Origin: a virus
Reading direction: 5' to 3' (one strand)
DNA length: 62,310 nucleotides
Virus record (IMG/VR): IMGVR_UViG_3300033148_005414
Span: 1-62,310 of that record
Below are positions 6,544 through 44,956 of the stretch, one piece after another (within the stretch, counting starts at the first letter, position 1; each line of letters opens with the position of its first letter). Under the pieces are notes generated by a model. The model was not told where the DNA came from. It saw only the letters and a list, made by a program, of their open reading frames with translations, and did no database searches. Position numbers and translations under genes: made by a program.

Positions 6544-6969
6544 TTATGCTGCGAAGGTAATTGCATCCGAAATTGCAAGGCCACCCGTAGGTAGACGTAC
6601 AACAAGGTAAAAGGTTGGAGCTGTTGTTGCATTAGTAATATCGATATCGATATCACCATCTGCCTCCGAAACCAGAGTACCCGAGAGATCCGCAACTGAC
6701 TCTATTAACGCGCCATCAGTACCGATAGCGATACCTCCAGCTGGGGCAGCTGTGCTTGGGGTTAAACCCAAAGCATCGTCTGCTAAATAGAAATCAAGTG
6801 CTGCAACCTCACTCAGAGCTTTACCATTTTGGTCGTTTAGTTGTATGGCGACATTAATGACATCCGCAGCTTCTGCGCCTACAGTGAATACTACACCATA
6901 GCCTTTAACTGGGATTTCATTATCACCTAACAACAATTGACCAATACTTAGACGTTCACGCCATGACAT
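6544..6969 (-). CDS. Putative structural protein (beta-rich)
   Basis: 141 residues from ATG 6969, which has AGGAG eight bases upstream. The sequence alternates hydrophobic strands with Gly, Asp and Thr turns and ends in a strand-rich LVVRLPTGGLAISDAITFAA stretch, as in small virion or decoration proteins. It lies between TerL-linked genes and the lysis cassette. Function inferred only from composition and location. Confidence 0.6.
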   Translation of the reverse strand: MSWRERLSIGQLLLGDNEIPVKGYGVVFTVGAEAADVINVAIQLNDQNGKALSEVAALDFYLADDALGLTPSTAAPAGGIAIGTDGALIESVADLSGTLVSEADGDIDIDITNATTAPTFYLVVRLPTGGLAISDAITFAA

Positions 6970-7056
6970 AGCGATTCTCCTATAGTTTTGCTCACCAGCT
7001 GTCCATAGCCATATTGATAAGATTAAACACAAAAGCAGGACTCAGCCTGCTTCACT

Positions 7057-7254
7057 TTATGCTTCAGCAGCTGTGGTTGTGCCGTCTGCAACTTGCACCC
7101 AGTTGGTGCCGTTGGAAACGATTAAACCTGCAGCCCCAGCGATACCAGTAGGACACCAAACTACAACGCCAATGTTACCTGTAGCTGCAGCTGTTAGGTC
7201 AGCAAAAGCAACAATTGGATGCTCTGCGCCTAACGGTTGGTCAAATTTTCCCAT
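7057..7254 (-). CDS. Small putative virion protein
   Basis: 65 residues from ATG 7254, with GGAGG upstream. Ala/Gly/Thr-rich (MGKFDQPLGAEHPIVAFADL) with a single Trp-Cys-Pro. It resembles the short glycine-rich proteins that accompany virion genes. No family identified. Confidence 0.6.
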   Translation of the reverse strand: MGKFDQPLGAEHPIVAFADLTAAATGNIGVVVWCPTGIAGAAGLIVSNGTNWVQVADGTTTAAEA

Positions 7255-7373
7255 GAGAAAATCCTCCATTACAATTAAAAAACCCTTTCGGGACCGTTAT
7301 CTCTCTACTGTAGGGTGGCCCCATCAAAAAACCCAAGAGAGAGAAGACAGGGAAATCATCAGGGGCCATAAGC
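7255..7373. other. Gap between structural and lysis genes
   Basis: About 120 bases without a gene. It contains gcttactttatag at the o-spanin stop and a ccctttcgggac stretch that could form a weak short hairpin. I see no convincing promoter or terminator. Confidence 0.4.
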
Positions 7374-7640
7374 TTACTTTATAGACTCATTGTATTTATC
7401 TATAACCTGTTCATATGTTTTAACACGTTCACGGCACATTGTCTTGCCAGTATTTAATTTTTTATATGTTTCATCAGAAAGGCAGGCAAGTTCTTGTTGC
7501 CAGACTTTAGGGTAAACTGGCTCAGCAGGACGATTGATTTTTTCCGCCTTCCCTTGGATTGGACAGGAATTGCAGCTACTCAAAACCATCGCGGTTAGAA
7601 TTGCTAGGATTACTAGCTTTATTGATTTCAGTTTGTTCAC
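7374..7640 (-). CDS. Outer-membrane spanin subunit (Rz1-like lipoprotein)
   Basis: An 88-residue protein with a lipoprotein signal peptide: basic MNKLKSIK, hydrophobic core, and lipobox LSSC with Cys23 as the expected lipidated residue. It begins inside the i-spanin gene in another frame and runs past its end, the Rz/Rz1 overlapping arrangement. In such systems the o-spanin in the outer membrane binds the i-spanin across the periplasm to fuse the membranes at lysis, so a Gram-negative host is implied. Confidence 0.8.
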   Translation of the reverse strand: MNKLKSIKLVILAILTAMVLSSCNSCPIQGKAEKINRPAEPVYPKVWQQELACLSDETYKKLNTGKTMCRERVKTYEQVIDKYNESIK

Positions 7641-7827
7641 GATTCATGCCCTCCACTACTGCTTTATTTGCGGCTTTGCCTGTTTTCCGGGCTTGGATTT
7701 CACCCTTCAACTTATCTTTTGTCCTACCAAGCTTCTCTGACTGTAAAAGAAAAGCAGTAATAGCTAAAGCTAGGGCAAGCGCCCCCATTCCCCATGTTTT
7801 TAATGTACCTAACCCCGGAATGCTCAT
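7576..7827 (-). CDS. Inner-membrane spanin subunit (Rz-like)
   Basis: An 83-residue protein with one N-terminal membrane helix (about residues 12-28, MGALALALAITAFLLQ) followed by a charged periplasmic helix. It overlaps the putative holin stop by 4 bases and contains the start of the o-spanin gene. It is shorter than lambda Rz (about 153 residues) but has the same order and topology. Confidence 0.75.
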   Translation of the reverse strand: MSIPGLGTLKTWGMGALALALAITAFLLQSEKLGRTKDKLKGEIQARKTGKAANKAVVEGMNREQTEINKASNPSNSNRDGFE

Positions 7828-8021
7828 TTCGCACCCAATGGCTTAGTTGTCACTTGACGTAAAATATAAAAGCCAACAGCAAGGATAATGTAACTTAACC
7901 CATACCATTCGCCTAAAATTCCTTTAAGCATACTAAAATTTGTCTCGAGCACGCCTAATGCGCCAACAATTACTGTCGCATCGACTGTCTTTGACCCCTG
8001 AATTATCCCGTTATATTTCAT
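7824..8021 (-). CDS. Putative holin
   Basis: 65 residues with two hydrophobic stretches (residues 15-35 and 43-57, the second GLSYIILAVGFYILRQVT) and a short basic tail ending TTKPLGAK. It sits between the endolysin and the spanins. I recognise this GSKTVD...TTKPL pattern from small membrane proteins beside phage lysis genes. The holin role is inferred from topology and neighbours. Confidence 0.6.
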   Translation of the reverse strand: MKYNGIIQGSKTVDATVIVGALGVLETNFSMLKGILGEWYGLSYIILAVGFYILRQVTTKPLGAK

Positions 8022-8307
8022 GAATTTCTCCGTTATCTGTTATAACACCACATTCACAACACTGGATTTGACCTTTTAGAATAAAGAATAGCCTATTTCC
8101 ACAGTGACATGCCCATAATTTATTTGTAATTGGAGCAAGGTGGTGTTTGTATAACCCTTTCATGGTTTTGCAGTTGGGGCACTCCAGCTCTTTGATTCCA
8201 ACTGGCGCTACTGCTTCCCATTCCTTGTCGCATGCAGAACAAATAGCAGTTCCACTTAAATGCTGTGCTCCTGCTTCCGTATTATTTATATATATCACGC
8301 TTCCCAT
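8011..8307 (-). CDS. Zinc-ribbon protein
   Basis: 98 residues with three Cys pairs: CSACDKEW (about 23-26), ECPNCK (43-46), and CHCGNRLF plus CCECG in the C-terminal half. These suggest two zinc-binding knuckles. It overlaps both neighbours and interrupts the lysis cassette. Role unknown; nucleic-acid binding is possible. Confidence 0.65.
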   Translation of the reverse strand: MGSVIYINNTEAGAQHLSGTAICSACDKEWEAVAPVGIKELECPNCKTMKGLYKHHLAPITNKLWACHCGNRLFFILKGQIQCCECGVITDNGEIHEI

Positions 8308-8807
8308 GCGGCTGCACCATGATTTTTATGAAATCCATACAATACACTAGCTAACTCTCTTCGTTTTATCGCGGCTTCTTTTGTCGAAAAAGACCCTAGA
8401 TGTAGTGGCTTCCCGTTTACTTTGATGCTTGCACACCAAGCTTTTCCGTCTGTTCGCGGGAATACGCCTAATGATCCGCTAGTATTATTAGTCTGTAGAG
8501 AAGTGTTTTTGCCGTTTTCTTGGTGAGTAGCTTCTTGGATTTCGCTCCAACGATTATCATCGCGAATGTGTTTTTTGTGGTCTATTTGGTGTGATGGAAA
8601 TTCTCCAGTCATATATAACCATGCGAGCCTGTGAGCTAAATACCGTTGACCATTAACCCCAATGCGAATATATCCGTCTTTTTTGCAAGTATATCCGACT
8701 TTAGAGCCAACCATCTGGTTTCCAGCCCTAGCTATCCGAATAAAAATACCAGTCTCGGGATTATAGTGTAGCCTTTCCTTTAAAGCTTTTTGAGTTAATT
8801 CACCCAT
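8295..8807 (-). CDS. HNH homing endonuclease with AP2 domain
   Basis: 170 residues from ATG 8807, which shares its A with the endolysin stop (TGATG). The N-terminal part carries an HNH core around AHRLAWLYMTGEFP...QIDHKKHIRDDNRWSEIQEAT. The C-terminal part (about 110-160) is an AP2-type DNA-binding domain with NTSGSLGVF...WCASIKVNGKPLHLGSF. This pair of domains is typical of free-standing phage homing endonucleases. It splits the endolysin from the holin and spanins. Confidence 0.85.
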   Translation of the reverse strand: MGELTQKALKERLHYNPETGIFIRIARAGNQMVGSKVGYTCKKDGYIRIGVNGQRYLAHRLAWLYMTGEFPSHQIDHKKHIRDDNRWSEIQEATHQENGKNTSLQTNNTSGSLGVFPRTDGKAWCASIKVNGKPLHLGSFSTKEAAIKRRELASVLYGFHKNHGAAAWEA

Positions 8808-9214
8808 CACCCTAATTCCACATGCGCCATATCCCACCCATAAGGGATACCGTTTATTGTTTTATTTGATGACCACAATCCACCCCATTCCAACTTATGC
8901 CCTAATATTGAAGCAGCCTGTAAGAATGCTGCAGCTACCATTGCTAAATGATCATGCTGCCAACTCGCTCCACCAACATAAGCGTAAAAATCTAACGCGT
9001 CACCTGATTGATGGTTGGATAAATGATTAACTCCATCAGCTTTAGATTTTCCGTCAGCGTATAATTTGGCTTGGTCTTCTACTGTGCGTACTCCACCGTA
9101 TTCAGGAATACCGAAGTCAACCTTTGAAATCTTAATAGCTAGATTAGCAATCTGGATTAAACAAGGATTTACGCCTATCATTCTGCTTCTTGATGTTGCG
9201 CTTAATTTAAACAT
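8807..9214 (-). CDS. Endolysin, M15 D-Ala/L-Ala-D-Glu peptidase family
   Basis: 135 residues. It shows the peptidase M15 (VanY/T5-type) zinc motifs: SNHQSGDALD (SxHxxGxAxD, His and Asp ligands) near residues 65-74 and WDMAHVEL at the C-terminus with the third His. The family cleaves peptide cross-links in peptidoglycan at the end of infection. No signal peptide is visible, so export would depend on the holin. It starts 7 bases inside the preceding gene. Confidence 0.88.
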   Translation of the reverse strand: MFKLSATSRSRMIGVNPCLIQIANLAIKISKVDFGIPEYGGVRTVEDQAKLYADGKSKADGVNHLSNHQSGDALDFYAYVGGASWQHDHLAMVAAAFLQAASILGHKLEWGGLWSSNKTINGIPYGWDMAHVELG

Positions 9215-9413
9215 GCTTTTCTTTTACTCCTGCCCAAAACCATCTTCCATGTTCAGAATGTAAAGGTTCTGGGTCTGTAATTAATATCGGTTTTTCACCA
9301 GTGCAGCCCGTTAGTATTTCACTTATATTATCAGGAATGTAAGTATCCCCTTTCTCTTTATTATGTAGCGCGGCACATAATATAGCCCCGTTCTTTCTAA
9401 CTCTTAACGCCAT
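9207..9413 (-). CDS. Hypothetical protein
   Basis: 68 residues (MALRVRKNGAILCAALHNKE), with a basic N-terminus and acidic middle. It overlaps the endolysin start by 8 bases. Similar short proteins occur beside phage lysis genes, but I cannot assign a function. Confidence 0.6.
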   Translation of the reverse strand: MALRVRKNGAILCAALHNKEKGDTYIPDNISEILTGCTGEKPILITDPEPLHSEHGRWFWAGVKEKHV

Positions 9414-9501
9414 TATTTTCTCACTTTATAATTTGGTGGGTTCACACGCTTACCGGGCTTGACGAACAGCTCCTCCTCATAAGCATGGATCCCATTGATA
9501 G

Positions 9502-9741
9502 TTAATCTTCCTGATCTGTGATAATTCCTGCCATTTTGGCTTGAATTAGCCTTTGTTTCTCAAACTCAAGCATCCAAAGCGCATCCTTATAAACCATATT
9601 CCCAGCTTGAGAATATTGGTTGCCATCGAGATCCCTGTAAATAATAAAGACCTCGCTAATATCATCGACATCTTCTAATAAATTAGCTAACGCTGCAGCT
9701 GGCGACCAACCTGTATTTGGTAAAGACTCAATCTTTGCCAT
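9502..9741 (-). CDS. Hypothetical acidic protein
   Basis: 79 residues (MAKIESLPNTGWSPAAALAN) with a DVDDISEVFIIYRDLDGN core, likely a compact alpha/beta fold. The start codon shares one base with the stop of the next upstream small gene (TAATG). Function unknown. Confidence 0.6.
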   Translation of the reverse strand: MAKIESLPNTGWSPAAALANLLEDVDDISEVFIIYRDLDGNQYSQAGNMVYKDALWMLEFEKQRLIQAKMAGIITDQED

Positions 9742-9899
9742 TATTTTTTATTCTGCTTTAATGGACCTTTGAGGGTTTTATCGTTAATCATACAGATCCG
9801 GCGATAATGTCCTTCTGGCACCTCAAAATGTTTATTTTTGCCTGTTATTGTACGAACTTCCCCGCCACGACGGACGCATTTTAAAAAAGATTTACTCAT
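9741..9899 (-). CDS. Small basic protein, 52 residues
   Basis: A short gene with ATG at 9899 and TAA at 9741-9743, reading MSKSFLKCVRRGGEVRTITG onward. It overlaps the HNH gene stop by 4 bases and the next gene start by one base, so it fits precisely into the operon. Rich in Lys and Arg. Function unknown. Confidence 0.65.
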   Translation of the reverse strand: MSKSFLKCVRRGGEVRTITGKNKHFEVPEGHYRRICMINDKTLKGPLKQNKK

Positions 9900-10336
9900 T
9901 TGAAATTTTCCATAGCATATAAGTCGCTCATTTTAGCATGTAAACCTAGATGGTATCCTGTTTTACAAATAAGTAGATTTTGATTTCGATTGTCCAAAGG
10001 GTTGCAATTAATGTGATGGACACATTCGCCCTTCTTTAGTTTTCGGCCTAAAACCTTTTCCGCTTTTATTACATGCTCGGCGCGTAGGACCCCATCGTCA
10101 TCCCTAACATAATTATGTGAATAGCGAGAGCCATCATATTTAACTCGCTTATAAGTATGGATAAAAGAATAATCTTCTGGTTTATTGTTTCTTCTTGGTT
10201 TATTTTTATATGCTTGAGCCATGCAATCTTTGCTGCAGTATTTATCTCTTCCATCCTTTTCTCTCGAAGGAACAACATAAATTTCTTTTTCGCAGGCTCC
10301 GCAAGGAATCATTCTTCCAATCTTTTTCCTTCCCAT
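9896..10336 (-). CDS. HNH homing endonuclease
   Basis: 146 residues. It has an N-terminal zinc knuckle (CGACEKEIYV...KYCSKDCM) and a C-terminal HNH core (GECVHHINCNPLDNRNQNLLIC) followed by HLGLH. The layout matches free-standing phage HNH endonucleases that mobilise themselves into neighbouring genes. It lies between the small terminase and lysis genes. Confidence 0.85.
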   Translation of the reverse strand: MGRKKIGRMIPCGACEKEIYVVPSREKDGRDKYCSKDCMAQAYKNKPRRNNKPEDYSFIHTYKRVKYDGSRYSHNYVRDDDGVLRAEHVIKAEKVLGRKLKKGECVHHINCNPLDNRNQNLLICKTGYHLGLHAKMSDLYAMENFK

Positions 10337-10337
10337 T

Positions 10338-10673
10338 TTATTTTCCTATTCCGGGCCAATGCCCTGTTGTTATTAATGTCCAGACTGCAGCAACCACTAA
10401 ACCAAAAGCTATTATCCATTTTGCCGCGACCCCTATCCACCCGAGTACGCGAAAAAATCCTTTAGCGGAGCGAAATATAGCCAGCATTTCGGTGAAATCA
10501 ATAATAAACTGATCCCAGTCGCTTTTCATCTCAGCCACAACCCCCTGATGATCACCAAGCTCTCCTCGGAGTGCTTCTATCTGCATTCCCACTTCAGTTT
10601 CACATTTTTGCAGTTTCTTCATAACGCTCTCCGGAGTATGCTTCCTGCGCTCAGGCTCTTGGCCGCTAGTCAT
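10338..10673 (-). CDS. Membrane protein with N-terminal coiled coil
   Basis: 111 residues. A helical charged region (about 10-60) is followed by a strongly hydrophobic helix (about 78-104, AAKWIIAFGLVVAAVWTLITTG) and a short tail. It overlaps the TerS stop by 8 bases. The topology could fit a second holin or pinholin partner, but there is no specific evidence. Confidence 0.6.
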   Translation of the reverse strand: MTSGQEPERRKHTPESVMKKLQKCETEVGMQIEALRGELGDHQGVVAEMKSDWDQFIIDFTEMLAIFRSAKGFFRVLGWIGVAAKWIIAFGLVVAAVWTLITTGHWPGIGK

Positions 10674-11262
10674 GATTTAATTCCTTTGGTGGGTTAATGA
10701 CTTTTTCAGGAGGGGTGCTTGGCCCACCCATATCAAAGTTAAAATTAACAACCTGTATATCTATTTCTTTTTTCTCAACCCACATTCCAAGCTCATGGAA
10801 TTTACCAAGCTGAGTCAAAGCTTGGTTCGCCGCCTTTAAATCGGTGCTTTTGCCTTTATGTTTAATAACAGTGCCTTCGTGAAGACCAACAACCATTTCT
10901 TGTTCGACACGACCTAGCCCCATCTCTTTTACTTCAATTAAGTCAAGGAGGATGCTTTCTTGGGTAAGTTTAACAACTTTTTCTAATGCGCGGGTACGGA
11001 AATATAGATAGCGACGGACCTTAGCTCGCTTAAAAAAGCGAGTGGTCCCAGTCGCTTTTGAGGAAACTGTTCTTGGTTTGTAGATTTTAGCGAAGGCAGA
11101 GGTTTGATCCATAAAGCACTCACCAAGGTATTCATCGCAGACTTGCTTTTCTTTTGGTTTAAGCCACCAAGAGGAGTCCATTGGCTCAATAAACTCAGGA
11201 AAAGGGTGCTCCTGAACCATAAGCTCGGTATCGCCAAAAACTGGGACTACTAAATCAACCAT
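10666..11262 (-). CDS. Terminase small subunit
   Basis: 198 residues. The central part matches the terminase small-subunit family: KEKQVCDEYLGECFMDQTSAFAKIYKP, then a helix-turn-helix-like stretch and a VRRYLYFRTRALEK helix. It ends with a flexible Pro-rich tail (GGPSTPPEKVINPP) likely contacting TerL. It recognises phage DNA for packaging. TerL lies 5 kb further along the same transcript, with lysis and nuclease genes between. Confidence 0.78.
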   Translation of the reverse strand: MVDLVVPVFGDTELMVQEHPFPEFIEPMDSSWWLKPKEKQVCDEYLGECFMDQTSAFAKIYKPRTVSSKATGTTRFFKRAKVRRYLYFRTRALEKVVKLTQESILLDLIEVKEMGLGRVEQEMVVGLHEGTVIKHKGKSTDLKAANQALTQLGKFHELGMWVEKKEIDIQVVNFNFDMGGPSTPPEKVINPPKELNHD

Positions 11263-21149: not shown

Positions 21150-21464
21150 GTGCGTAAGATTACATTAAAACTTAAACATGTTGGCGGGGTATACCAGCGC
21201 AATGGTGATTGTTTATTGTGCCATGATGCGTTAGGTGAATTATTTACCTTGCCAAAAGTACGCAGCACCCCAATCACTTTTATTATTAGCGACAAGGAAA
21301 CTAAAAACTCCTATAAAGTTCGGTTTGGCAAACCCAATGATTGTGATGTTTTTTATGAGGGGGAATGGCATTACAAGTGTCTTTTTGGTGATGCAGATAT
21401 TTTTATTAGCCGTCACGCCCTTAATGGTGCTACCTGCTGGGTTAACTTGTACTGGGAAGAATAA
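21150..21464 (+). CDS. Hypothetical protein, intact copy of a duplicated pair
   Basis: 104 residues from GTG 21150 with GAGGAG upstream. Begins MRKITLKLKHVGGVYQRNGD, with GELFTLPK, NSYKVRF and DCDVFYEGEWHYKCL. These blocks recur in the frameshifted gene at 22107-22435, showing a duplication around the clamp-like gene. Function unknown. Confidence 0.65.
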   Translation: MRKITLKLKHVGGVYQRNGDCLLCHDALGELFTLPKVRSTPITFIISDKETKNSYKVRFGKPNDCDVFYEGEWHYKCLFGDADIFISRHALNGATCWVNLYWEE

Positions 21465-21470
21465 ATTAAT

Positions 21471-21489
21471 GGGCCTTCGGGCCCTTTTT
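21471..21489 (+). terminator. Rho-independent terminator
   Basis: GGGCC-TTCG-GGCCC followed directly by TTTTT. A UUCG tetraloop with a U-run is a strong terminator; here it separates the duplicated protein from the clamp-like gene 12 bases before its start, so it may attenuate that gene. Confidence 0.7.
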
Positions 21490-21500
21490 CGGAGAAAATC

Positions 21501-22076
21501 ATGAAAGTGACAATTGATACAAATTACATGAGGGCCCTTTTTGAAGTGGTTCCTACCGAGGAGATTCGCACTTACTTAAAAGGTGTGCATTTACCTCCTG
21601 ACAGCGAACAACTAATGGCTTCCGATGGTTATAGGTTGCTTATTGTTCCGGTAAAATTAGAAGATCCGTTATTTAATGGATTAAACCATTTCTGCGAGGG
21701 CATCACTTTTAAATTGCCTGCAAGAAAACCTTTAAAGTCTGATAAGTATATAACTATCGAAACTGGACGCAATCCTGAGCGTTATGAAGAAATGACGTGG
21801 ACTTATTACGGTAAAAACAGCATGGTGCGCGAACAATGTATTTGCCATATTCAGGTTGGTAAGTTTCCTGATACTGATTTTATTGTTAATGGATATAGCA
21901 ACGCCAAACTGCCATCTATAGGCTTCAACCCAGCTTACTTGTTAGATGTTTATGCCGCCCTTGGTTATTTTGGGGGAGTCAGACTGCTAATGGGCTGTGA
22001 TAAACATTCTGCAATTAAAGTGGATTTTGGCAAGCAAACTAAAGCCAAATACTACTTAATGCCGATGCACTTATAA
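21501..22076 (+). CDS. Mini sliding-clamp-like protein (DnaN-related)
   Basis: 191 residues versus about 366 for bacterial beta clamp. The C-terminal 55 residues read IGFNPAYLLDVYAALG...VRLLMG...SAIKV...AKYYLMPMHL. E. coli DnaN domain III ends with IGFN..Y.LDV..AL....VR...T...SS..I......AYVVMPMRL. The N-terminal part has IRTYLKGVHL...MASDGYRLLIVPV and VGKFPDTDF, matching DnaN domain II (VRYYLNGM, ATDGHRLAV, DGRFPDY). Domain I and part of domain III appear missing. A role as clamp, decoy or clamp-loader ligand is inferred. Confidence 0.72.
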   Translation: MKVTIDTNYMRALFEVVPTEEIRTYLKGVHLPPDSEQLMASDGYRLLIVPVKLEDPLFNGLNHFCEGITFKLPARKPLKSDKYITIETGRNPERYEEMTWTYYGKNSMVREQCICHIQVGKFPDTDFIVNGYSNAKLPSIGFNPAYLLDVYAALGYFGGVRLLMGCDKHSAIKVDFGKQTKAKYYLMPMHL

Positions 22077-22106: not shown

Positions 22107-22435
22107 ATGAGTAAAATTGAAATAAAACTAAAGCACCGCCGCACCGCATTTGGTGAGGATTATTTCACGCCATTTGGTAATAAAGTGGCGTTAATATGCC
22201 GTGAAATTTTAGGTGAACTGTTCACTTTACCTAAAAAACAAAGTCGATTACCCTTGTTGTGAGCTCAGAAGAAACGCCTAATTCATATAAGGTTCGCTTT
22301 GAAAACACTGATTGCGACGTTTTCTATGGAAATAAATGGCAGCGTGAATGCCTAACGGATCACGCTTACCAAGAAATTTGTAAACGTGGCTTGGAAGGTA
22401 AAACTGTCTGGGTATCTTTTTACTGGTACGAATAA
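22107..22435 (+). pseudogene. Frameshifted paralogue of the 21150-21464 gene
   Basis: Starts MSKIEIKLKH with GGAG upstream and reads GELFTLPKK, then stops at 22260-22262. In the -1 frame the homology continues (SSEETPNSYKVRF, DCDVFYGNKWQRECL) to TAA at 22433-22435. The break falls at six A's (22233-22238); one more A would restore a full 109-codon gene. It may be a mutation, a homopolymer sequencing error, or less likely a programmed -1 frameshift. Confidence 0.7.
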
Positions 22436-22793: not shown

Positions 22794-22858
22794 AAATATC
22801 TTATATTATTTTAATGGTATTATTTGTTGTTGGCGCGTCCGAGTGGGTTCCGTTTTAA
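22790..22858 (+). CDS. 22-residue membrane microprotein
   Basis: GTG start at 22790 overlaps the previous stop (GTGA) and has GGAGAAGG upstream. Encodes a hydrophobic peptide, MKISYIILMVLFVVGASEW plus three residues, long enough for one membrane helix. Its stop overlaps the stop of the convergent nuclease gene. Expression is plausible but unproven. Confidence 0.4.
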   Translation: MKISYIILMVLFVVGASEWVPF

Positions 22859-23760
22859 AATTCCCACCCTTTTAAAATACCGCTCATGTTTTTCTTGATT
22901 TCATTATATTTTTTGGAATCGATAACGACCAACTTAACGTCTGGATAATATTTCGCCATACGCTTAAGTTTGGTTTTACTTTTATCATCCATCCACCCTT
23001 TCACTTCATGGTAAATGATCCCAGATTTACCGTGTATCTTAAAGTCTGGCAAATATGACCGGACGCCACGCTTGATTTGCTCAAACCAGAATGTATCAGG
23101 CTCAAATTCCCAATCAATTATAAATTCTTTTTCTTTTAGGAAATCAAGATACAATGCGTAGTTAAATTCCCAACGACTACGAAAATAGTATCGCTTACCT
23201 TTTATCTCCCTCCAGCCTGACTTCCATGTTGTTTTACGCCTGTTTTTTGGGTGAAGCGTGCCATTTTTCAACCTTGTCTTACATCTAGTTAAGATTGCAG
23301 TATTTTTTTCTTCCTCTGACAAATCATCCCAATATTTTTTTGATTTTACGCCTAGTTTTTTTCGGGTTTCAGGTGAATGTTTTTTACCTTTATAACCTTT
23401 CGGGTGCTCGTTTAACTCCCATTTTTTCTTTGGATCTTTCTTTAATCCAAGATTTGAGCGCCACTGCTCAACACTACCAACAGATATATTAAACATAAAA
23501 GCTAAATCTTTGTCTGGGAGTTGGTCATGTAGTTTAATGAATTCGTCTTTACTCTTCTGAAAATTTGGAGATCCGTTAAATACTCTGACTTTTGTTAAAC
23601 CAAGTTTTTTACTCCATCTGCTAACGGAGATTGTAGCCACCCCAAAGTGTTCAGCTAAATCATCGTCGGTCATAGTATTATATAGGTTGATGAATTCGTC
23701 TTTTATGCCATCAAGCATCGATGTAGTTCTTGGCTTACCTTTCTTCCATGATCCTGACAT
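22855..23760 (-). CDS. PD-(D/E)XK homing-type endonuclease with HTH and NUMOD repeats
   Basis: 301 residues. Two N-terminal helix-turn-helix repeats (DDLAEHFGVATISVSRWSKK and DLAFMFNISVGSVEQWRSNL) lead into a NUMOD3-like KKHSPETRKKLG motif near residue 130. The C-terminal nuclease has RSRWEFNYALYLDFL, then YLPDFKI and IYHEVKG, the PD...ExK core, plus a Lys-rich end. This is a free-standing homing-type endonuclease, inserted between convergent operons. Confidence 0.78.
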   Translation of the reverse strand: MSGSWKKGKPRTTSMLDGIKDEFINLYNTMTDDDLAEHFGVATISVSRWSKKLGLTKVRVFNGSPNFQKSKDEFIKLHDQLPDKDLAFMFNISVGSVEQWRSNLGLKKDPKKKWELNEHPKGYKGKKHSPETRKKLGVKSKKYWDDLSEEEKNTAILTRCKTRLKNGTLHPKNRRKTTWKSGWREIKGKRYYFRSRWEFNYALYLDFLKEKEFIIDWEFEPDTFWFEQIKRGVRSYLPDFKIHGKSGIIYHEVKGWMDDKSKTKLKRMAKYYPDVKLVVIDSKKYNEIKKNMSGILKGWEF

Positions 23761-27222: not shown

Positions 27223-27455
27223 ATTAGCATCTCGAAAAAATCTGGCGCATCATCTGGAAGATCATTGTTGTCCTCTATAACTAATGGCGCATCATGGTAT
27301 TTATCATATTCTGGCTCCCGCCTAGTGTTTATTTCCCAATATTCCCAGTCAAATAAAGACCCAGTAGCTAAATATTTAGCTTTATTTCTTGTTTCTGCAT
27401 AAACAAGCAAGCATCCATCCGAGGGGTATCCTGAAAAAACCATGTATGCCTTCAT
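27219..27455 (-). CDS. Conserved-type phage protein
   Basis: 78 residues (MKAYMVFSGYPSDGCLLVYA), with ARN-like AETRNKAKYLATGSLFDWEY, a pattern seen in small phage proteins. Acidic end. Coupled to the helicase by a 4-base overlap. Function unknown. Confidence 0.6.
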   Translation of the reverse strand: MKAYMVFSGYPSDGCLLVYAETRNKAKYLATGSLFDWEYWEINTRREPEYDKYHDAPLVIEDNNDLPDDAPDFFEMLI

Positions 27456-28984
27456 GCTTGCTTGCTCTGATATCTGGCTTTAATATTCAAATATGTGATG
27501 TACCTACTAAATTCCTCAGTGGGTTTTTCAAGTCCCCGGTGGAAGCTGTTGGGTGGCACCTGTTTAAATTTATCCTTGTATTTATAGTGAGCCCAACCGG
27601 GCTGATACCCCTTTTCTGCTGCATGCAGTAAGAACATCGAATACCATTTTTGCCGCTCTTCTAACGACGCCTCTTTTTTCCTAGGTTTTTTAACTTTAGG
27701 TAAGCCAACGAGCTTTCCCCGTGCAACCTCAACGTCCTCCGCATGATGGGCAAGCGGCGTCCCGCATTTCGGGCAGATATCTTGTTTCCTGAAGAGGAAG
27801 CCGCAGTTTCCACAGATAAAATCTTTCGGTTCGTCTTTAACCCCATCATCGTCTTTCTTTTTGGCGTCACGTTCAGATACATTCTCATTCTCATTTAAGT
27901 CCCACTCATGCTCTTCGTCAACGGGGCCATGGCGCAATACATTACCAGCATGGTCCATTATTAAACAATCACCACCATCAGATTTTGGCCGTAAACCACG
28001 CCCCGCCATCTGGAGGTACATTCTTAGTGATTTTGTTGGTCTGGCTAGGATAACGCCATCAACATCAGGCATATCAACGCCTTCGGTAAACACCTCACAA
28101 TTTGAGAGTATTTTGTACTTACCGGCTCCAAAATCAGCAACGATTTGGTCTCTTTCTTCAAGATGGGTTTTCCCATCCACGTGTGCAGCCGCTATTCCAG
28201 CTGCATTAAACATATTAACAATAGCTCTTGAGTGAGCAACATTAACCGAGAATGCAATCATTTTTCTATTTAAAGCATATTCTTGGTAATGGTGTACCAA
28301 GTTACCGACAAGCGTAGCATCATTCATAACTTCGCCAAGCTCCTCTTCAACCCAGTCCCCACCTCGAGATCGAATACCTTCTAAGTTCGGTATAGCTGGA
28401 ACCATATAAGAAGCTTCAGCTAAAAACCCAGCATCCATTAACTGTCTTACGCTGGCCCCGTGGTCTCTGGCTAAAATCATGCAATCAAAATAATTACCTA
28501 ACCCTTTACCATTTTTGCGTGTTGGAGTGGCTGTTACGCCAATTAAAAATGAATCTTCATAAAACTCAAGCAAGTGGTCATAGGTTTTGCTGCCGACATG
28601 GTGCGCTTCGTCAACTACTAGTAAATCAGAGCGAGGAAGGTTGATCCTAGCTTTTTTTACAGCTCTAGCCCATAGCGTTTGAATGCTGGCCATTTGAGTA
28701 TGATGAGCGAGATTAGGGACCTCGCCAGCCATGATGATTCCGTGCTCAACAGACTCATTTGTCATGTGCCGGGAGGCTTGTTTAACGAGTTCGCGCCGAT
28801 GAACGAGAAATAAGGTTTCGCTTTTTTTCTCGTCAGCAGCGCCAATTATTTTGGAAAAAAGAACAGATTTTCCGAAGCCAGTTGGGGCTTGAACCAATAT
28901 TTTTCTAAAGCCTTGGCGATACGCCTCACGGATCGCATCATATATGCTTTTTTGGTCTGTTCTTAATATTTTTTTATTAATCAT
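27452..28984 (-). CDS. Superfamily 2 DEAD/DEAH helicase with zinc ribbon
   Basis: 510 residues. Helicase motifs in order: APTGFGKS (Walker A, about residue 36), DEAHH (motif II), TATPTR (motif III), and QMAGRGLRP (motif VI, about residue 325). A C-terminal zinc ribbon (CGNCGFLF...CPKCGTPL, about 390-410) may bind DNA. The layout resembles phage repair or branch-migration helicases, and it is the only helicase recognised. In a phage without its own polymerase it may open the template or act in recombination-driven replication. Confidence 0.85.
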   Translation of the reverse strand: MINKKILRTDQKSIYDAIREAYRQGFRKILVQAPTGFGKSVLFSKIIGAADEKKSETLFLVHRRELVKQASRHMTNESVEHGIIMAGEVPNLAHHTQMASIQTLWARAVKKARINLPRSDLLVVDEAHHVGSKTYDHLLEFYEDSFLIGVTATPTRKNGKGLGNYFDCMILARDHGASVRQLMDAGFLAEASYMVPAIPNLEGIRSRGGDWVEEELGEVMNDATLVGNLVHHYQEYALNRKMIAFSVNVAHSRAIVNMFNAAGIAAAHVDGKTHLEERDQIVADFGAGKYKILSNCEVFTEGVDMPDVDGVILARPTKSLRMYLQMAGRGLRPKSDGGDCLIMDHAGNVLRHGPVDEEHEWDLNENENVSERDAKKKDDDGVKDEPKDFICGNCGFLFRKQDICPKCGTPLAHHAEDVEVARGKLVGLPKVKKPRKKEASLEERQKWYSMFLLHAAEKGYQPGWAHYKYKDKFKQVPPNSFHRGLEKPTEEFSRYITYLNIKARYQSKQA

Positions 28985-37819: not shown

Positions 37820-38017
37820 ATGGAGATTATTGCGATATTATTCATGCCGATATTGATTATCGTAGGAGGGCTAGCTATAGGTTTTGCCCCAATCGTGGCT
37901 GGCGCAATAACACATCAATTCACAGAAGATAAACTACCAAAAAGCGGCTGCTGGATTTTAACCATAGCCGCTTTTTTTATGTCGGTTTATTTAATCGACC
38001 TTTTGTTCGTTCATTAA
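37820..38017 (+). CDS. Small two-helix membrane protein
   Basis: 65 residues (MEIIAILFMPILIIVGGLAI), with two hydrophobic helices flanking ITHQFTEDKLPKSGC. Overlaps the end of the giant gene by 27 bases. A terminator lies inside its coding sequence. Confidence 0.5.
   Translation: MEIIAILFMPILIIVGGLAIGFAPIVAGAITHQFTEDKLPKSGCWILTIAAFFMSVYLIDLLFVH
37939..37978. terminator. Bidirectional terminator inside coding sequence
   Basis: AAAAAGCGGCT pairs with AGCCGCTTTTT (11 bp), T-run after it on both strands. It ends the plus-strand phosphatase operon and the giant minus-strand gene. It falls inside the membrane-protein gene, so full-length expression of that gene would need readthrough. Confidence 0.8.
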
Positions 38018-41000
38018 CTCATAAACATATTTTTTCCGCTTGTAAAAATCCTTACGAATCTTAGGGCGACCCTCTTTATTAGCGGTTGCTAATGCTCGAG
38101 TTTGCGCTGCATCCATAAATTGAGATGTCATACGCCAGCGGGGGATACGGCCATTCATAATATAACGAATATCAGATTTATTAACTTTAGCAGCCTTTAA
38201 TACACGGCTAATCACAGACTTTTTAACACCTAATTTTTCCGCAGCATTCACCATTTTAATCATTTCCGTGAAGCCCTTTTTACGGGCGCGGATCATCCCG
38301 GAAAAACCACGTTTAATGTCTTTTTCTGTAACTGTTGATCCACTACCAACAACCTTATTAAGTTGTTGAGTAGCTAATGATTTTACATCCTTAAACTCTA
38401 AAGTTTTATAGTAAATTGATTGCGGCACGTTAAGCGTCCCCATACGGAAGCCAACCAAAGCAACCGCTTCATCCTCAATCTTGTATTCTTTTCCGCTAGG
38501 TGATGTTTCGCCACGAATGGCTTTTGTCATGCGCTCAGCATTAGAAACAACGCCGGGTTGAGCGGCTTTACGGAAATGATTAATCATATCCAACGCAATT
38601 TCATCTGTTGGTGCTTCAGGATTATAAATTTTTGTCCCGGTGCCTGCACGCTTATTGGAATAGATTTCCATTAAAGCTCCTGCTGCAATATCGACGCCAA
38701 TAAAGGGCTCAAGAAACTCAACCAGAGCATCTAATACCTTTTTATCAATACCTTCGTTATTTTTATTTAAGATGGCAGTAATTGGTTTTTTCAGGTATGT
38801 GTACGGATCAAAATATGAAAAATCGATATATTTAGGATACCCGCTCTCGTCATAACCTAAATAAATTAATTGTGAATTGCGTACCCATGGGGCAGCTAAA
38901 GACCGCACTGCCTCATCATCATCAGATTCGAGGCCCATCATCACCATAGACATATATGACAAAGTGGCTGAAATTGAAGTGGCCATTGCCATTCCTAAAG
39001 TGCGTTGAGCCACCATTTTTGTATTACCAGCAGCCACGTCTTCTTTCAAAAACTTCATTTGATTTGCTGTAGTACGAACAATTTCATATGGGAATGAAAC
39101 AAAAGTACCAATCAGCGGCCAGCGACGCACCATTTTCACAGCACGAGGGACCATTGAATAAGTTGGATACCCATTACGAATACGATAAGCGGCTTTAATT
39201 TCAGCGTCTTTACGAGACTTACCGGTTTCCATTTGTAGTTTGATTTCATTTTCAAAGCCAATAATTTTCCAAAAATCATCACCAACTTGATATAGCCGCT
39301 GCATGAAATTCAAGAAACGGCGTAGTGACTTGGTTGGGCCCTTAGAATAAATATCGATATTCATAAAGTCTTCCAAAGCATGCCGTAATTCTTCTGCCCG
39401 AGGGTTATCATGTAGAACACCCAATGAAATCAAATTATTAAGGTATTTACGCCATTTTGTATCTTTAGTAAATAAATCTGACTGGGCTGCGCGAAACGCT
39501 TTTTGCCCATGACTCCAATCAAAATGACCATTCATTACTGAGAACATTGCTGCAGACATGAAGTTACGGGCCTGAGTGGTTGGAGCAAGAATTGTTTTGC
39601 CGTACTTAACAGCTGAGTTAAGGCGAATAAAGCTACGCATAACAGCCCCACCCTCGATAGCATCACGCATATCTTCCAGCCCCTGAATAAAGTCCTCTGT
39701 TGTGTACAGGCCGTCAATTGGGTTCATTGTTTCCGCGCCTTTGGCTGCAATACGCTTGTCGAATTTCCCTATAGGGCGTTCAAACATAAAAATCCCAAGG
39801 CCACGGCTACGCAGCTGCATTAGAAATTCATGATTTGCTAAATAATTGTACATTTTGGTGGCTGAACGAACAAAATTAATACGTGGGTCAAGATATTCAC
39901 CCAATAATTCACGGATCACATCAGGGACATCCTTGCGATTAGTTAGCATGGATACATCTTTTGTTCCGTATTTGGTGCCACCAGAAATGAATGAGAAAAA
40001 ATTCCCTTTATCTTTTGCGGCCTGAAGAATTGCACGTACTGCACCATGAACCTCTTCTGGAATAAGGTCAGGGTTGCGCTCGGCAATATAGGCTTCTGCA
40101 CGCTTAATTAAGTCTTTATTCTTGAGAGCTTTGTTTTTCCATTTTGCATTATCAAACGCCTCATATGAGCGATTCATATAAGTACCCATATTTTTACTGA
40201 TAGTTTGGTGCATTTCAAAGTGGCTGCGAATTGACGCAGGAACATAGCCATCAGGTTCACCCTTTAAAAAGGATTCAAACGCCTCATTATCTGCTTGACT
40301 TAATTTTGCACGCTGAATTACCATCATATCGACCATGGCTTTCTGCATACCGCCGGATAACCGGTCAAGATAAGCACGCATACCATCCAATGTTTCTTTC
40401 ATCTCGGTGGATAGCCCAGCAACCTTTTCACCATGCAGGTAATTATTTACTTTTAACAACTGCTCCTCTGAGATAGACACATAATTCTTAGTGCCAAATT
40501 CTTTATTCATCGCCTCTTCAAACTTGTGGATAACAAATGAAACGTCTTCTTCTCCAGCTTTTTTCAGTGAATCACTTTTGATTTTTGCCTCAAAACCTTC
40601 GTCGTTTAAAAGCCCTTCTTTAGTAAAGTGACGCCTTACAAACTTGGCCACGGAGCGCATTGCTGAAGGATCAGATTCATTAGTTGTTTTAAGATCATTT
40701 TGGATCTGCTGGACTGTATCGGCGGCAATTTGTGGCACTTCACCAGTTTGAACAGCTTGACGCATTCCAACGATAACTTCGACAAGCTCAGAGTTAGTTA
40801 AGCGAACAGATGGCATAATATTTCGCAGCCATTGTGCGATTTTAGCAAGCGTCCGGGTAACGATGGTGGATTTAGGGTTGGTCTCAGCCGTAACAGCAAT
40901 AAGTTCCTCTGTTAATTCAAGGCGGTTTTTAGGTGTGATCTGAACACCCCAAGTTTTGGCTAAATCACGAATTTTTTCTTTGTTGTCACGATAGACTTCC

Positions 41001-44000
41001 TCAAGGAATGGATTAATTTCATCGCCAAATAAGCCACGTAAACCATGGTGGCCCATAACTTCGTGCATTATTACTTTAAATAATTCTGCCTTAGAGTTAA
41101 TTTTATCAGCAACCAAATAAACCCTTCCTTCAGATGGGACGTACATACCAATAACTTGTTCATAAGAGTCAGTGGTGATTAATGACTCACGAATATGTGC
41201 TGGCAGCTCTTCTTTAACTGCAACAACCTCCATTTCTGGCGCATTCTTCCAGTTTTTTTGGACCACTACTGCTGTTTTTTCAATATACGCAACGCTGAGC
41301 CCTTTTCCACCTTTTGCAGCCCCGCGACTTGCTAAAACCGTCAACGGATCTTTCCCAACCTTAATAGCGGCTCGTAATTCACTTTCATGGATACGCTTAT
41401 ATGTATCTAAATTAATGCCTTTGGTTGGTTTACGGCCCTGTTCTCTTGCTATGGCGTTTTCAGTATTTTCAAACATTTTTAATACTGATTTTACACTAGG
41501 CAATGTTCCACGTGGAACAAAGCCATATTCACCGAGATCACCAAAATCCCCGGTTAGCACGCGGTATGAAGCATCAGCCACATTAGTATTATATTCATGA
41601 GCAAATCCAGCAGGGTCAACAGTGATGCCCATTTCTGCAAAAAGCATGCGCTGCACACGGAAAGCAACATCCTCCCATTCAACAGCACGCTGGGCTTCTT
41701 TAAGAGTTAATGGCTCCAACTCCACTTGCGCTTGTTTTTTGTCTGGGTGCCCACGGGTAGCCATCCAAGATTGACCCAAGCGACCTTCACGGCGGCTGTC
41801 CCCATAGCGTTTTTGCATGAAGTCCTCAGTGATGGCATGACCAAGTTCATGTACGATACGCCATTGTCGGGTGTATTCGGCGTCCTTGAACGAGCCGTGT
41901 GCCACACGCGGGTCATAGATCCATAAATACCCATCTTTATATCCTTGTTTTTTAAGTTTAGGGATGACAAATTCAACGCCAGCCTCTTTATCTACATGGA
42001 ATGAGAAATATTTTACCTCAAAACCAAAGCGCTTAACTAAATCCCTAACTAACTTCGGGTTAGTAACGAGTTTATCGAGATTATAAAATTTAAGGTTTTT
42101 GGTGGTGTCTTTTTTAGCGTCAAGCACGCCAAATTTCCCGTAAACATCGGGGATTGGTTTTGCGTTTAGTCGAGATAAGGGTATTGGTGAGGTAAGCGTC
42201 CGACCCGGGGCTTTTTGTCCTGTTTCTTGCTCTTGATATCCGGTGCCCCAGAAATCACGAAGCCCTTTCCGTGTGGGGCTGTAACGTAATTTATTTTTCC
42301 GCTCCCAGACGCCGATTTCTCGGTTGTAAGCTGAGATACCTTCTTGTCTTGAGTCCCAACTTCCGATGAGCTCGCCTTGGCCTTTGTATGCTTCGATGTC
42401 TTGTTCATATTTCTTACCTAATTTAGAGACACTCTTGCTAAGAGTAGTGCCTTCATCATAAATTACAACTGTAGTGCCGGTTGGACCGGGAATTAATGTA
42501 CGAAAGTCTAATTTTAACTCATCAAGTGTTGAGCGTACAGCTTCAATGTTACCCTTTTCTAATGGGATTTTGATTTTATAGAAGGAATCAACCCCATTTT
42601 CATCAGCAATAAACGATAAAGCTCCTTTTTGATTAAAAAACTTACCTGTCAATGAAGCGGCGTATTTTAGCTGATCCATTGATTTTGGAGATTCAACCTC
42701 AATTAATAAGCTGTCCTCGGCACCATCAATCCAGTCACCAAGAGCATCACTTGTGGTGTGCTCAAGTCCCATTTCATCAAAAATATCATCAGTAATAGCG
42801 TGTGAGGTTTGATGCTTTTCAGAGCGAATTGAAGTAGCAGCCTCATCAAATGACATTTGAGCATCCCAGTCGTTCGGGGAAACAGCCACAAAACCTTTCT
42901 TTTTGGTTGGAGGTTTCTGTTGTCGAGACAACAGAATCGCCGCCGAATCCGGTAATGCTTTTTTAGCTTTTGGGCTATGAACAAAGCGCTTAAATTGCTC
43001 GGTACTTAATGGCACTATTGAATCAAAACCAGCCCACTTTTTATCGTAGTTAGCCATGTATGCAGCTTTAGCGGCTTTCTCGTCTGGGTAGCCAATCATT
43101 ACCTTGTGTTCATCGAACTTGCCAGTAGTAGGATTATTTTGATTAACAACGTAAAAAGTATCAGCAGTTTCAGCATCAGGACCCAGAAACACGTCCACAT
43201 GATCGCCATCGGCACCTTGAGTCCGTTTAATATATCCATAATGAGCCCCCATTTTTTGGGACCACTTCTGGCCACCTTCATCGACGCCAGAGCGTATTGA
43301 TCCTTTGGGGTTTTCAATAGCTACGTCCATTCCCTGAACTTGCGTATGCCCTTTCTTGTAGTTACCTGCCTCTTTTTGGGCCTCGGTAGGTGCGGTGTCC
43401 ACTTGGGTCGCCGCCTCCTCAATGGGTAATCCGTATTTTTTCTCTGGCTTAGCTGCTTCAAACGCGGCTTCCATGACTGATTTAGGCTTAGCGGAAATAG
43501 CTCGCTCTGCTTTTTCAGCCTCAAGACTTTGCTTAATTTGCCCTGCAGTGGTTGGAGCAGCAGGCTCAAGATCAGCAGGAACAACAGTTGTTTTTTGGAT
43601 TTCCGCAAAAGCTTTTTCTTCATCAGCCTTTTTTTGATTGGTTTGATCTGCTTCATATTCATCGAAAGCAACAACTGCCTCACTAAAAATCTTTTTATCT
43701 CTTAGGATGTCTTTTAGATCGCTCACCGACTGTTTTGTGTCGATTTCATTTTCAATATCAGATTGAAGGGTTTCAAAAGCCTTTTTAAGAGCATCAATCT
43801 TCCCTTTATTTTCTGCTTTTGCACTATAATTATGAAGAGCAGTTGCAGCTTGATACGCCGAAGAGGCAGACGCACCTGTGCCTGCACCACCCATAATAGA
43901 TGGTAAAATACCTTCCGTTAAATCTTGTTTTGGACGCCACGCTAATTTTTTAGCGATATTCTGGACTAATTCTTGTAATCCCTCAGTTGTTCCTTCTGTA

Positions 44001-44956
44001 AGCGCTGACCCAACAATACCTAATAACCCTTTTGCATTAGTAATCTTGTCAACACCCAGCTTTTCTAGCCAAGTATTAATTCCCGCAACCATCAATTGGG
44101 TTCGAGCAAACTCACGATCATCAATTTTCTTGCCGGTTTTAGCTTCAAAGTCAGCAGCATCACTTGCTGTGTCCATTGCCTCCATCCAAGCAATAAATAA
44201 TGGAGAGCCCCCTGATTTTAACGATGCGTAAAGGGTAGGGGCGGCATTCCCAATAAAGCCAGCCCATGCTTCTACATCGGTCAACACGTCTGTTAGGTGG
44301 CTCGTGTCTCCACCGATAGCGGCTTTAAAGGCTTCGTCTGCTTTTTTACCTTTATCAGCCAACATTTTAAAGGTATCGAAATTTTCGACCATTAATTGTT
44401 GTGATTTAGAAATTTCACCCGCTACGATATTAGCGTGTTTGCGTAAATTAATTGCGTCAGGGACGTATAATTCTTCTGTTTTTGGAAGGGCCCATTCAGG
44501 TAGCCCTAAATCACGGCCAGACTGAACTAAGGCGTCATAATGACGCGCAATAGCGTCTGGAGTCCGAAAAATTGACTCAGAAATCCCTAATGTTGCTTTT
44601 GCCGCAGCTGCACCAAAAGCTTTTGGGGTGGCGATTGTTTTATCAAGCATTTCGCCTGTTGTTCTTGGCTCTTCGTTAATATCTGCTCCACCAAGAGCAA
44701 GTGAGGTTTTTTGTGGGTCGCTTTCTGCTTTTTCTTGCAGGGGAGCTCCACCTAAAGCCATAGAGGTATATTGCGACTCTGGGGCACTGGGCTTAGTTTC
44801 CTTGTCAAATTGAAGACGTACAGCTTCAACCTGATCTTCAGGAACTTTAGGCTGAACAACTTCATTGAAATATTGCTGACGAGCATTTTCTTTTTGAGCG
44901 TCGTCTAAAGCTTGAAACCGCGTATCAGCAACAACATCCTGCCATGGCTTAGCCAT
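37991..44956 (-). CDS. Giant internal virion (polyvalent) protein with two metalloprotease motifs
   Basis: 2321 residues. The N-terminus (MAKPWQDVVADTRFQALDDA) is typical of large podovirus internal virion proteins. Near residue 580 a GYIKRTQGADGDHVDVFLGP stretch resembles the pyrophosphatase-like domain of phage polyvalent proteins. VHELGHAI near residue 1040 and MHEVMGHHG near residue 1300 are HExxH-type zincin motifs. Near residue 2000 a hydrophobic stretch (SISATLSYMSMVMMGL) precedes a long helical C-terminus. Probably ejected with the DNA to attack host targets and form a channel. No RNA polymerase motif was seen. Confidence 0.8.
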   Translation of the reverse strand: MAKPWQDVVADTRFQALDDAQKENARQQYFNEVVQPKVPEDQVEAVRLQFDKETKPSAPESQYTSMALGGAPLQEKAESDPQKTSLALGGADINEEPRTTGEMLDKTIATPKAFGAAAAKATLGISESIFRTPDAIARHYDALVQSGRDLGLPEWALPKTEELYVPDAINLRKHANIVAGEISKSQQLMVENFDTFKMLADKGKKADEAFKAAIGGDTSHLTDVLTDVEAWAGFIGNAAPTLYASLKSGGSPLFIAWMEAMDTASDAADFEAKTGKKIDDREFARTQLMVAGINTWLEKLGVDKITNAKGLLGIVGSALTEGTTEGLQELVQNIAKKLAWRPKQDLTEGILPSIMGGAGTGASASSAYQAATALHNYSAKAENKGKIDALKKAFETLQSDIENEIDTKQSVSDLKDILRDKKIFSEAVVAFDEYEADQTNQKKADEEKAFAEIQKTTVVPADLEPAAPTTAGQIKQSLEAEKAERAISAKPKSVMEAAFEAAKPEKKYGLPIEEAATQVDTAPTEAQKEAGNYKKGHTQVQGMDVAIENPKGSIRSGVDEGGQKWSQKMGAHYGYIKRTQGADGDHVDVFLGPDAETADTFYVVNQNNPTTGKFDEHKVMIGYPDEKAAKAAYMANYDKKWAGFDSIVPLSTEQFKRFVHSPKAKKALPDSAAILLSRQQKPPTKKKGFVAVSPNDWDAQMSFDEAATSIRSEKHQTSHAITDDIFDEMGLEHTTSDALGDWIDGAEDSLLIEVESPKSMDQLKYAASLTGKFFNQKGALSFIADENGVDSFYKIKIPLEKGNIEAVRSTLDELKLDFRTLIPGPTGTTVVIYDEGTTLSKSVSKLGKKYEQDIEAYKGQGELIGSWDSRQEGISAYNREIGVWERKNKLRYSPTRKGLRDFWGTGYQEQETGQKAPGRTLTSPIPLSRLNAKPIPDVYGKFGVLDAKKDTTKNLKFYNLDKLVTNPKLVRDLVKRFGFEVKYFSFHVDKEAGVEFVIPKLKKQGYKDGYLWIYDPRVAHGSFKDAEYTRQWRIVHELGHAITEDFMQKRYGDSRREGRLGQSWMATRGHPDKKQAQVELEPLTLKEAQRAVEWEDVAFRVQRMLFAEMGITVDPAGFAHEYNTNVADASYRVLTGDFGDLGEYGFVPRGTLPSVKSVLKMFENTENAIAREQGRKPTKGINLDTYKRIHESELRAAIKVGKDPLTVLASRGAAKGGKGLSVAYIEKTAVVVQKNWKNAPEMEVVAVKEELPAHIRESLITTDSYEQVIGMYVPSEGRVYLVADKINSKAELFKVIMHEVMGHHGLRGLFGDEINPFLEEVYRDNKEKIRDLAKTWGVQITPKNRLELTEELIAVTAETNPKSTIVTRTLAKIAQWLRNIMPSVRLTNSELVEVIVGMRQAVQTGEVPQIAADTVQQIQNDLKTTNESDPSAMRSVAKFVRRHFTKEGLLNDEGFEAKIKSDSLKKAGEEDVSFVIHKFEEAMNKEFGTKNYVSISEEQLLKVNNYLHGEKVAGLSTEMKETLDGMRAYLDRLSGGMQKAMVDMMVIQRAKLSQADNEAFESFLKGEPDGYVPASIRSHFEMHQTISKNMGTYMNRSYEAFDNAKWKNKALKNKDLIKRAEAYIAERNPDLIPEEVHGAVRAILQAAKDKGNFFSFISGGTKYGTKDVSMLTNRKDVPDVIRELLGEYLDPRINFVRSATKMYNYLANHEFLMQLRSRGLGIFMFERPIGKFDKRIAAKGAETMNPIDGLYTTEDFIQGLEDMRDAIEGGAVMRSFIRLNSAVKYGKTILAPTTQARNFMSAAMFSVMNGHFDWSHGQKAFRAAQSDLFTKDTKWRKYLNNLISLGVLHDNPRAEELRHALEDFMNIDIYSKGPTKSLRRFLNFMQRLYQVGDDFWKIIGFENEIKLQMETGKSRKDAEIKAAYRIRNGYPTYSMVPRAVKMVRRWPLIGTFVSFPYEIVRTTANQMKFLKEDVAAGNTKMVAQRTLGMAMATSISATLSYMSMVMMGLESDDDEAVRSLAAPWVRNSQLIYLGYDESGYPKYIDFSYFDPYTYLKKPITAILNKNNEGIDKKVLDALVEFLEPFIGVDIAAGALMEIYSNKRAGTGTKIYNPEAPTDEIALDMINHFRKAAQPGVVSNAERMTKAIRGETSPSGKEYKIEDEAVALVGFRMGTLNVPQSIYYKTLEFKDVKSLATQQLNKVVGSGSTVTEKDIKRGFSGMIRARKKGFTEMIKMVNAAEKLGVKKSVISRVLKAAKVNKSDIRYIMNGRIPRWRMTSQFMDAAQTRALATANKEGRPKIRKDFYKRKKYVYELMNEQKVD

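Follow-up and report, generated by a model that had tools for sequence, protein, structure and literature searches.

To our knowledge, all characterised clamps are rings or, in herpesviruses, DNA-binding processivity factors, and UL42 is an example of a clamp-fold processivity factor that does not form a ring. The E. coli clamp DnaN (β, 366 aa) has a shorter, UV-induced form, β*, which lacks domain I and was reportedly described in 1996 by Skaliter, Livneh and colleagues as a trimeric processivity clamp; it is said to be made from host dnaN and to keep the whole of domain III. In the dimer interface of β, Ile78 and Phe106 of one subunit face Ile272 and Leu273 of the other (PMC11139829). Subunits with two full domains also form rings, as in PCNA and T4 gp45 (PMC8357120, PMC11139829). 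Some phage proteins target the clamp of the host, among them Twort Gp168, which binds its DNA channel (PMC11139829).

The closest described relatives of the locus analysed here are the short phage clamps of phrog_3007, a family that is already known, hence not new, and apparently unstudied. It includes gp7 of Sodalis phage SO-1, annotated as "putative DNA polymerase III beta subunit; possible moron gene product", p08 of Shigella phage EP23, and members of Skatevirus and Roufvirus. The gene has served as a phylogenetic marker in one paper (PMC9901506), and a search covering part of the literature found no functional or architectural description of short phage clamps. The member described here, referred to as the mini-clamp, is encoded in a stretch of 62,310 nucleotides (the window) from an IMG/VR virus record that may be incomplete. 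The protein matches phrog_3007 over residues 1–190 (E 2.4e-15), with the same two deletions relative to DnaN and the same five pocket motifs (Table 1), and differs from other members in its divergence and in several pocket substitutions.

The first-pass annotation of this DNA had suggested a search for homologues of the half-length clamp in other phages. This search showed the protein to be no isolated oddity, but one of a broad phage family: tblastn against a phage collection returned 139 records with a relative, and a scan of IMG/VR with an alignment of known phage members returned 58 loci. The same scan with the single window sequence gave no match. One locus, L071, reads as host-type DnaN and was excluded from the family. 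Plasmids yielded matches to host-type dnaN only, and one scan of bacterial genomes returned ordinary DnaN. Identity between clades is about 20–35%, and the window protein reaches at most about 27–29% to any other member, while the motifs (D/E)(V/I)RYYLNG, TDGHR, DG(R/K)FPD, IGFNxxYL and MPMRL recur across clades.

Table 1. Position of the mini-clamp gene, its landmarks and pocket motifs in the window, and gene order at related loci (locus labels given in the first column).
Feature	Position	Strand	Description
Terminator-like hairpin GGGCCTTCGGGCCC with T5, then Shine-Dalgarno-like GGAGA	21471..21499	+	Immediately upstream of the mini-clamp gene; pattern match only
Shine-Dalgarno-like GGAGA	21491-21495	+	Just 5' of the mini-clamp gene
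Mini-clamp ORF	21501-22076	+	191 aa, ATG start; DnaN domain II fused to the second half of domain III
Pocket motif 1, EEIRTYLKG, residues 20-28	21558..21584	+	Corresponds to DnaN DVRYYLNG; contains R152 and L155
Pocket motif 2, ASDGYRLL, residues 40-47	21618..21641	+	Corresponds to DnaN ATDGHRLA (172-177)
Short basic loop RKPLKSDK, residues 75-82	21723..21746	+	At the site of the second lumen helix of DnaN domain II
Pocket motif 3, QVGKFPD, residues 118-124	21852..21872	+	Corresponds to DnaN VDGRFPD (P242)
Subsite II motif SIGFNPAYLL, residues 139-148	21915..21944	+	Corresponds to DnaN IGFNVSYVLD (N320, Y323)
C-terminal pocket tail YLMPMHL, residues 185-191	22053..22073	+	Corresponds to DnaN VVMPMRL (360-366)
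L072, four-gene row	6853-10687		ERF recombinase, YqaJ exonuclease, RNase_T (DnaQ-like) exonuclease, mini-clamp; consecutive, on one strand
L064			DnaB helicase, mini-clamp, RecT
L018			Mini-clamp, then SF2 helicase, then primase
L015			Mini-clamp, then DnaB

The mini-clamp is a genuine derivative of DnaN, and the relation lies far above chance. When the window protein is searched alone, Pfam recovers just the last part of the C-terminal domain of DnaN, with a score under the cut-off, and phmmer against the PDB places residues 131–191 on E. coli β 309–366 (E about 1e-4) and, weakly, residues 18–59 on β 147–190. A family profile of 39 proteins, the window protein included, matches DnaN structures at 7e-25 in two segments, corresponding to domain II and the end of domain III, and hhalign aligns this profile with DnaN from residue 130 to the C-terminus (99.7%, E 3.5e-27) with a single long gap within domain III. 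The Pfam model DNA_pol3_beta_2 matches 35 of the 39 members, and the NCBIfam model TIGR00663 (dnaN) as well as phrog_3007 match all 39, the former at E <= 0.01. The window protein stays far below the equivalog cut-off of TIGR00663 (16.8 bits vs 137.65).

The predicted fold points in the same direction. AlphaFold2 models of the window protein (pLDDT 77, pTM 0.80) and of a relative from a Klebsiella phage (L020, 178 aa; pLDDT 92, pTM 0.87) are both compact and full length and contain only two long helices. Residues 1–191 of the window model superpose on E. coli β 127–366 with Z 11–14 and about 170 residues aligned, and the Klebsiella phage model, likewise along its entire length, superposes on DnaN with Z 13–14. 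In a library of viral models, the nearest folds are other short phage proteins, several of them already named beta subunit. Profile and fold thus agree with the assignment made in the first-pass annotation, namely residues 1–130 to DnaN domain II and the rest to the end of domain III, and two of the checks that it had proposed, a profile search and a structure prediction, returned DnaN and the clamp fold.

What the family has lost was mapped on a 366-aa DnaN from Enterobacter with 18 family representatives that are less than 70% identical. Neither the window protein nor any of the 18 has an equivalent of DnaN residues 1 to about 127, which make up domain I. The loss of domain I had been noticed before and is borne out by hhalign, the structure alignment and this mapping; it has to be added that the first half of domain III (255–311) is likewise missing from the window protein and from all 18 representatives. 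MAFFT puts the first strand of the mini-clamp at the N-terminus of DnaN, which is an artefact, since both hhalign and the superposition of structures assign this strand to about 127–136. The mini-clamps do not contain the three clamp domains of DnaN and have fewer lumen helices. With domain I and residues 255–311 the known dimer interface is gone as well: the equivalents of Ile78, Phe106, Ile272 and Leu273 all fall inside the deleted parts in every one of the 18 representatives. Because both halves of the interface are deleted, a canonical ring of the DnaN type is unlikely. The residues lining the lumen are mostly lost (Q149 is kept in 17%, R197 in 33% and K198 in 6%), and the window model has no helix, according to DSSP, at the short basic loop that occupies the site of the second lumen helix. 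Pro77 and Lys79 of this loop are invariant in an 11-sequence alignment.

What has been kept is domain II, the second half of domain III with the C-terminal MPMxL, and the pocket to which short clamp-binding motifs (CBMs) bind. At the 18 pocket positions listed in PMC11139829, the 18 representatives are 78% identical to DnaN, compared with 20% at the other shared positions, a contrast that was not reached in any of 20,000 permutations (p < 5e-5). In the alignment of the 39 relatives, R23, L26 and G28 of the first motif, G43 of the second, P123 of the third and M187 and P188 of the C-terminal tail are invariant, and T/D/H of the second motif are almost so. The pocket is the best conserved part of DnaN itself, so its retention could be partly structural. 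A control restricted to positions invariant in four DnaNs argues against this, since the pocket positions are kept at 0.82 and the others at 0.39 (p 2e-5). The window protein belongs to the more divergent part of the family, with 11 of 18 pocket positions identical to DnaN; its second motif has Ser at the equivalent of DnaN 172 and Tyr at that of 175, and its pocket substitutions are His175 to Tyr, Arg246 to Phe, Val360 to Tyr and Arg365 to His. Among close relatives dN/dS is 0.06–0.17, and the family is under purifying selection. The possibility of a gene fragment or a decayed dnaN was rejected in view of the uninterrupted ORF, the recurrence of this architecture in many phages and the low dN/dS. 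A recent capture of host dnaN is not supported either, as identity to DnaN is about 25%, as low as to other family clades.

A large phage family has therefore kept the docking groove and discarded the ring-closing parts. The reading preferred here, to which about an even chance is given, is that of a non-ring, clamp-derived docking protein that binds the CBMs of host replication or repair proteins and steers or sequesters them while the phage replicates. Such a stripped β clamp would offer CBMs (QL(S/D)LF-like) the groove where domains II and III meet; domain I, the opening half of domain III and some of the helices that line the DNA have been given up. Candidate CBM-bearing host proteins are Pol III alpha, the delta subunit of the clamp loader, Hda, MutS/MutL, other polymerases and ligase. 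Their binding might have one of two outcomes: host polymerase or repair enzymes could be steered to phage DNA, or host proteins could be held off the host clamp. Steering is slightly favoured over sequestering because the gene lies among phage replication and recombination genes in several lineages (Table 1). Host proteins are the probable partners, given that the carriers' own proteins contain CBM-like motifs at chance level (4 found vs 4.4 expected, no enrichment); a phage-encoded partner bearing a CBM was not found. As counterpoints, the pocket of the window protein is divergent, and the gene stands apart from replication genes in the window, where it sits in a cluster of small genes on the + strand, and in Dhillonvirus and Skatevirus-like genomes. 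The consecutive genes of L072 are a possible proofreading or recombination unit.

The replication genes of the carriers bear on the question of whom the mini-clamp could serve. The 62-kb window record encodes RecT, a YqaJ exonuclease, SSB, an SF2 helicase, thymidylate synthase and a Dam methylase. In this possibly incomplete record no match was obtained to models of family A, B or C polymerases, of the delta-prime clamp-loader subunit, or of DnaB and zinc-ribbon primases; the silence of the model of protein-primed PolB carries no weight, as its control was silent too. The earlier statement that neither a polymerase nor a clamp loader was recognised therefore holds for the window, but the lack of a polymerase is not general, since PolA is present in 4 of 17 carriers. 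PolB or Pol III alpha is found in none of the 17, and 13 have no match to any of the three, so that the replication of these 13 presumably depends on the host polymerase. The SF2 (ResIII/DEAD) helicase of the window (27452-28984, − strand) has relatives in 7 of the 16 other tested carriers, that is in 8 of 17 with the window included, and may belong to a shared replication strategy of phages without a polymerase.

If the mini-clamp binds the partners of the host clamp, the docking function of a clamp would be separable from the encirclement of DNA, and the family would show a way in which phages lacking a polymerase may deal with the replisome of the host. Relatives are present in the E. coli phages Bas77–81 of the BASEL collection, whose hosts include K-12 with its O16 antigen restored (PMC11990801). 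The function of the mini-clamp is therefore open to immediate experiment in laboratory E. coli phages.

Another reading, possible but doubtful, is that of a working clamp ring of unusual symmetry in which compact subunits encircle DNA via new interfaces, either as a PCNA-like trimer, as reported for β*, or as a higher oligomer in which the half domain III of one subunit completes that of another. It has to be considered because the half domain leaves exposed edges that could self-associate into a new oligomer. The reported β* precedent suggests that a clamp can do without domain I, as the mini-clamp does, whereas β* is said to retain the half of domain III that the mini-clamp lacks. PCNA and T4 gp45 share with the mini-clamp the clamp fold and a smaller number of domains per subunit than DnaN; their two full domains contrast with the one and a half of the mini-clamp, whose second domain lacks its first half and would be unable to pair as in PCNA or β. 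The conserved basic loop at the former lumen helix, the compact full-length models and the presence of PolA in some carriers are consistent with a ring, against which stand the deletion of all known dimer-interface residues, the mere two long helices, the poorly kept lumen residues and the lack of an encoded clamp loader in the window record, where the delta-prime model was silent. Furthermore, a monomeric variant of β is reported to be unable to tether Pol III for processive synthesis (PMC11139829). A more specific form is quite improbable. In it, subunits of one and a half domains would assemble via interfaces unlike those of β and PCNA, for example into a ring of four with mutually completing half domains III, and would serve the host polymerase once loaded on phage DNA.

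A titrating decoy or inhibitor, which would keep host CBM proteins from the host clamp and shut down host replication or repair early, is also unlikely. The retained pocket would serve it just as well as the docking protein preferred above, the position of the window gene among small genes and the "possible moron" annotation in SO-1 fit it, and an overexpressed CBM peptide inhibits the growth of E. coli (PMC11139829). It would share with Twort Gp168 and similar inhibitors its direction at the host clamp system, although the mini-clamp is itself derived from a clamp. Most carriers, however, have no polymerase of their own and need the host replisome, so that blocking it would harm the phage too, and in several lineages the gene lies within the replication or recombination operon of the phage. 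Among the three options originally proposed, a compact ring, a decoy and an inhibitor, the pattern of loss and retention is best fitted by a decoy or docking role, and a canonical ring has become unlikely with the deletion of its interface.

That the mini-clamp is a non-ring processivity factor in direct contact with DNA, be it as a monomer or as a C-shaped dimer, is very improbable. Its models in herpesviruses would be UL42 and UL44, and UL42 demonstrates that clamp-fold factors of this kind exist. A herpesvirus processivity factor is among the viral fold matches (E 3.5e-4), and the monomeric β variant still binds DNA (PMC11139829). By charge alone the mini-clamp is neutral: basic residues are in no overall surplus in the window protein (23 K+R vs 21 D+E), and acidic members exist, such as that of L072 with a pI of 4.9.

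A RusA-like Holliday junction resolvase, the name borne by phrog_3007 and phrog_12598, which both match the family, is almost certainly wrong and was rejected, as no Pfam RusA model matches any of the 39 members (E <= 0.01), and the fold and the DnaN profiles are those of a clamp. The names of over 100 annotated records conflict between "DNA polymerase III beta subunit" and "RusA-like Holliday junction resolvase"; the latter, found in many RefSeq records (e.g., NC_054648.1, 18444-18983), seems to be a wrong PHROG label that has been carried over.

In the window, the mini-clamp gene is flanked by related small genes. An intact ORF of 104 aa (21150-21464) precedes it, and a split relative, 41–49% identical to this ORF, follows it (22107-22435) in the form of two ORFs (22107-22262 and 22259-22435) that overlap at GTGA; it is either a decayed copy or a frameshift. 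The 104-aa ORF has no relative in the phage collection. Two further proteins are encoded on the − strand. The first (22855-23760, 301 aa) has helix-turn-helix-like matches and a near-threshold match to DUF1064, perhaps a nuclease-like C-terminus. The second (37991-44956) is a protein of 2321 aa in which Pfam recognises an InPase (inorganic pyrophosphatase) domain, spanning residues 525–659 (E 8e-57).
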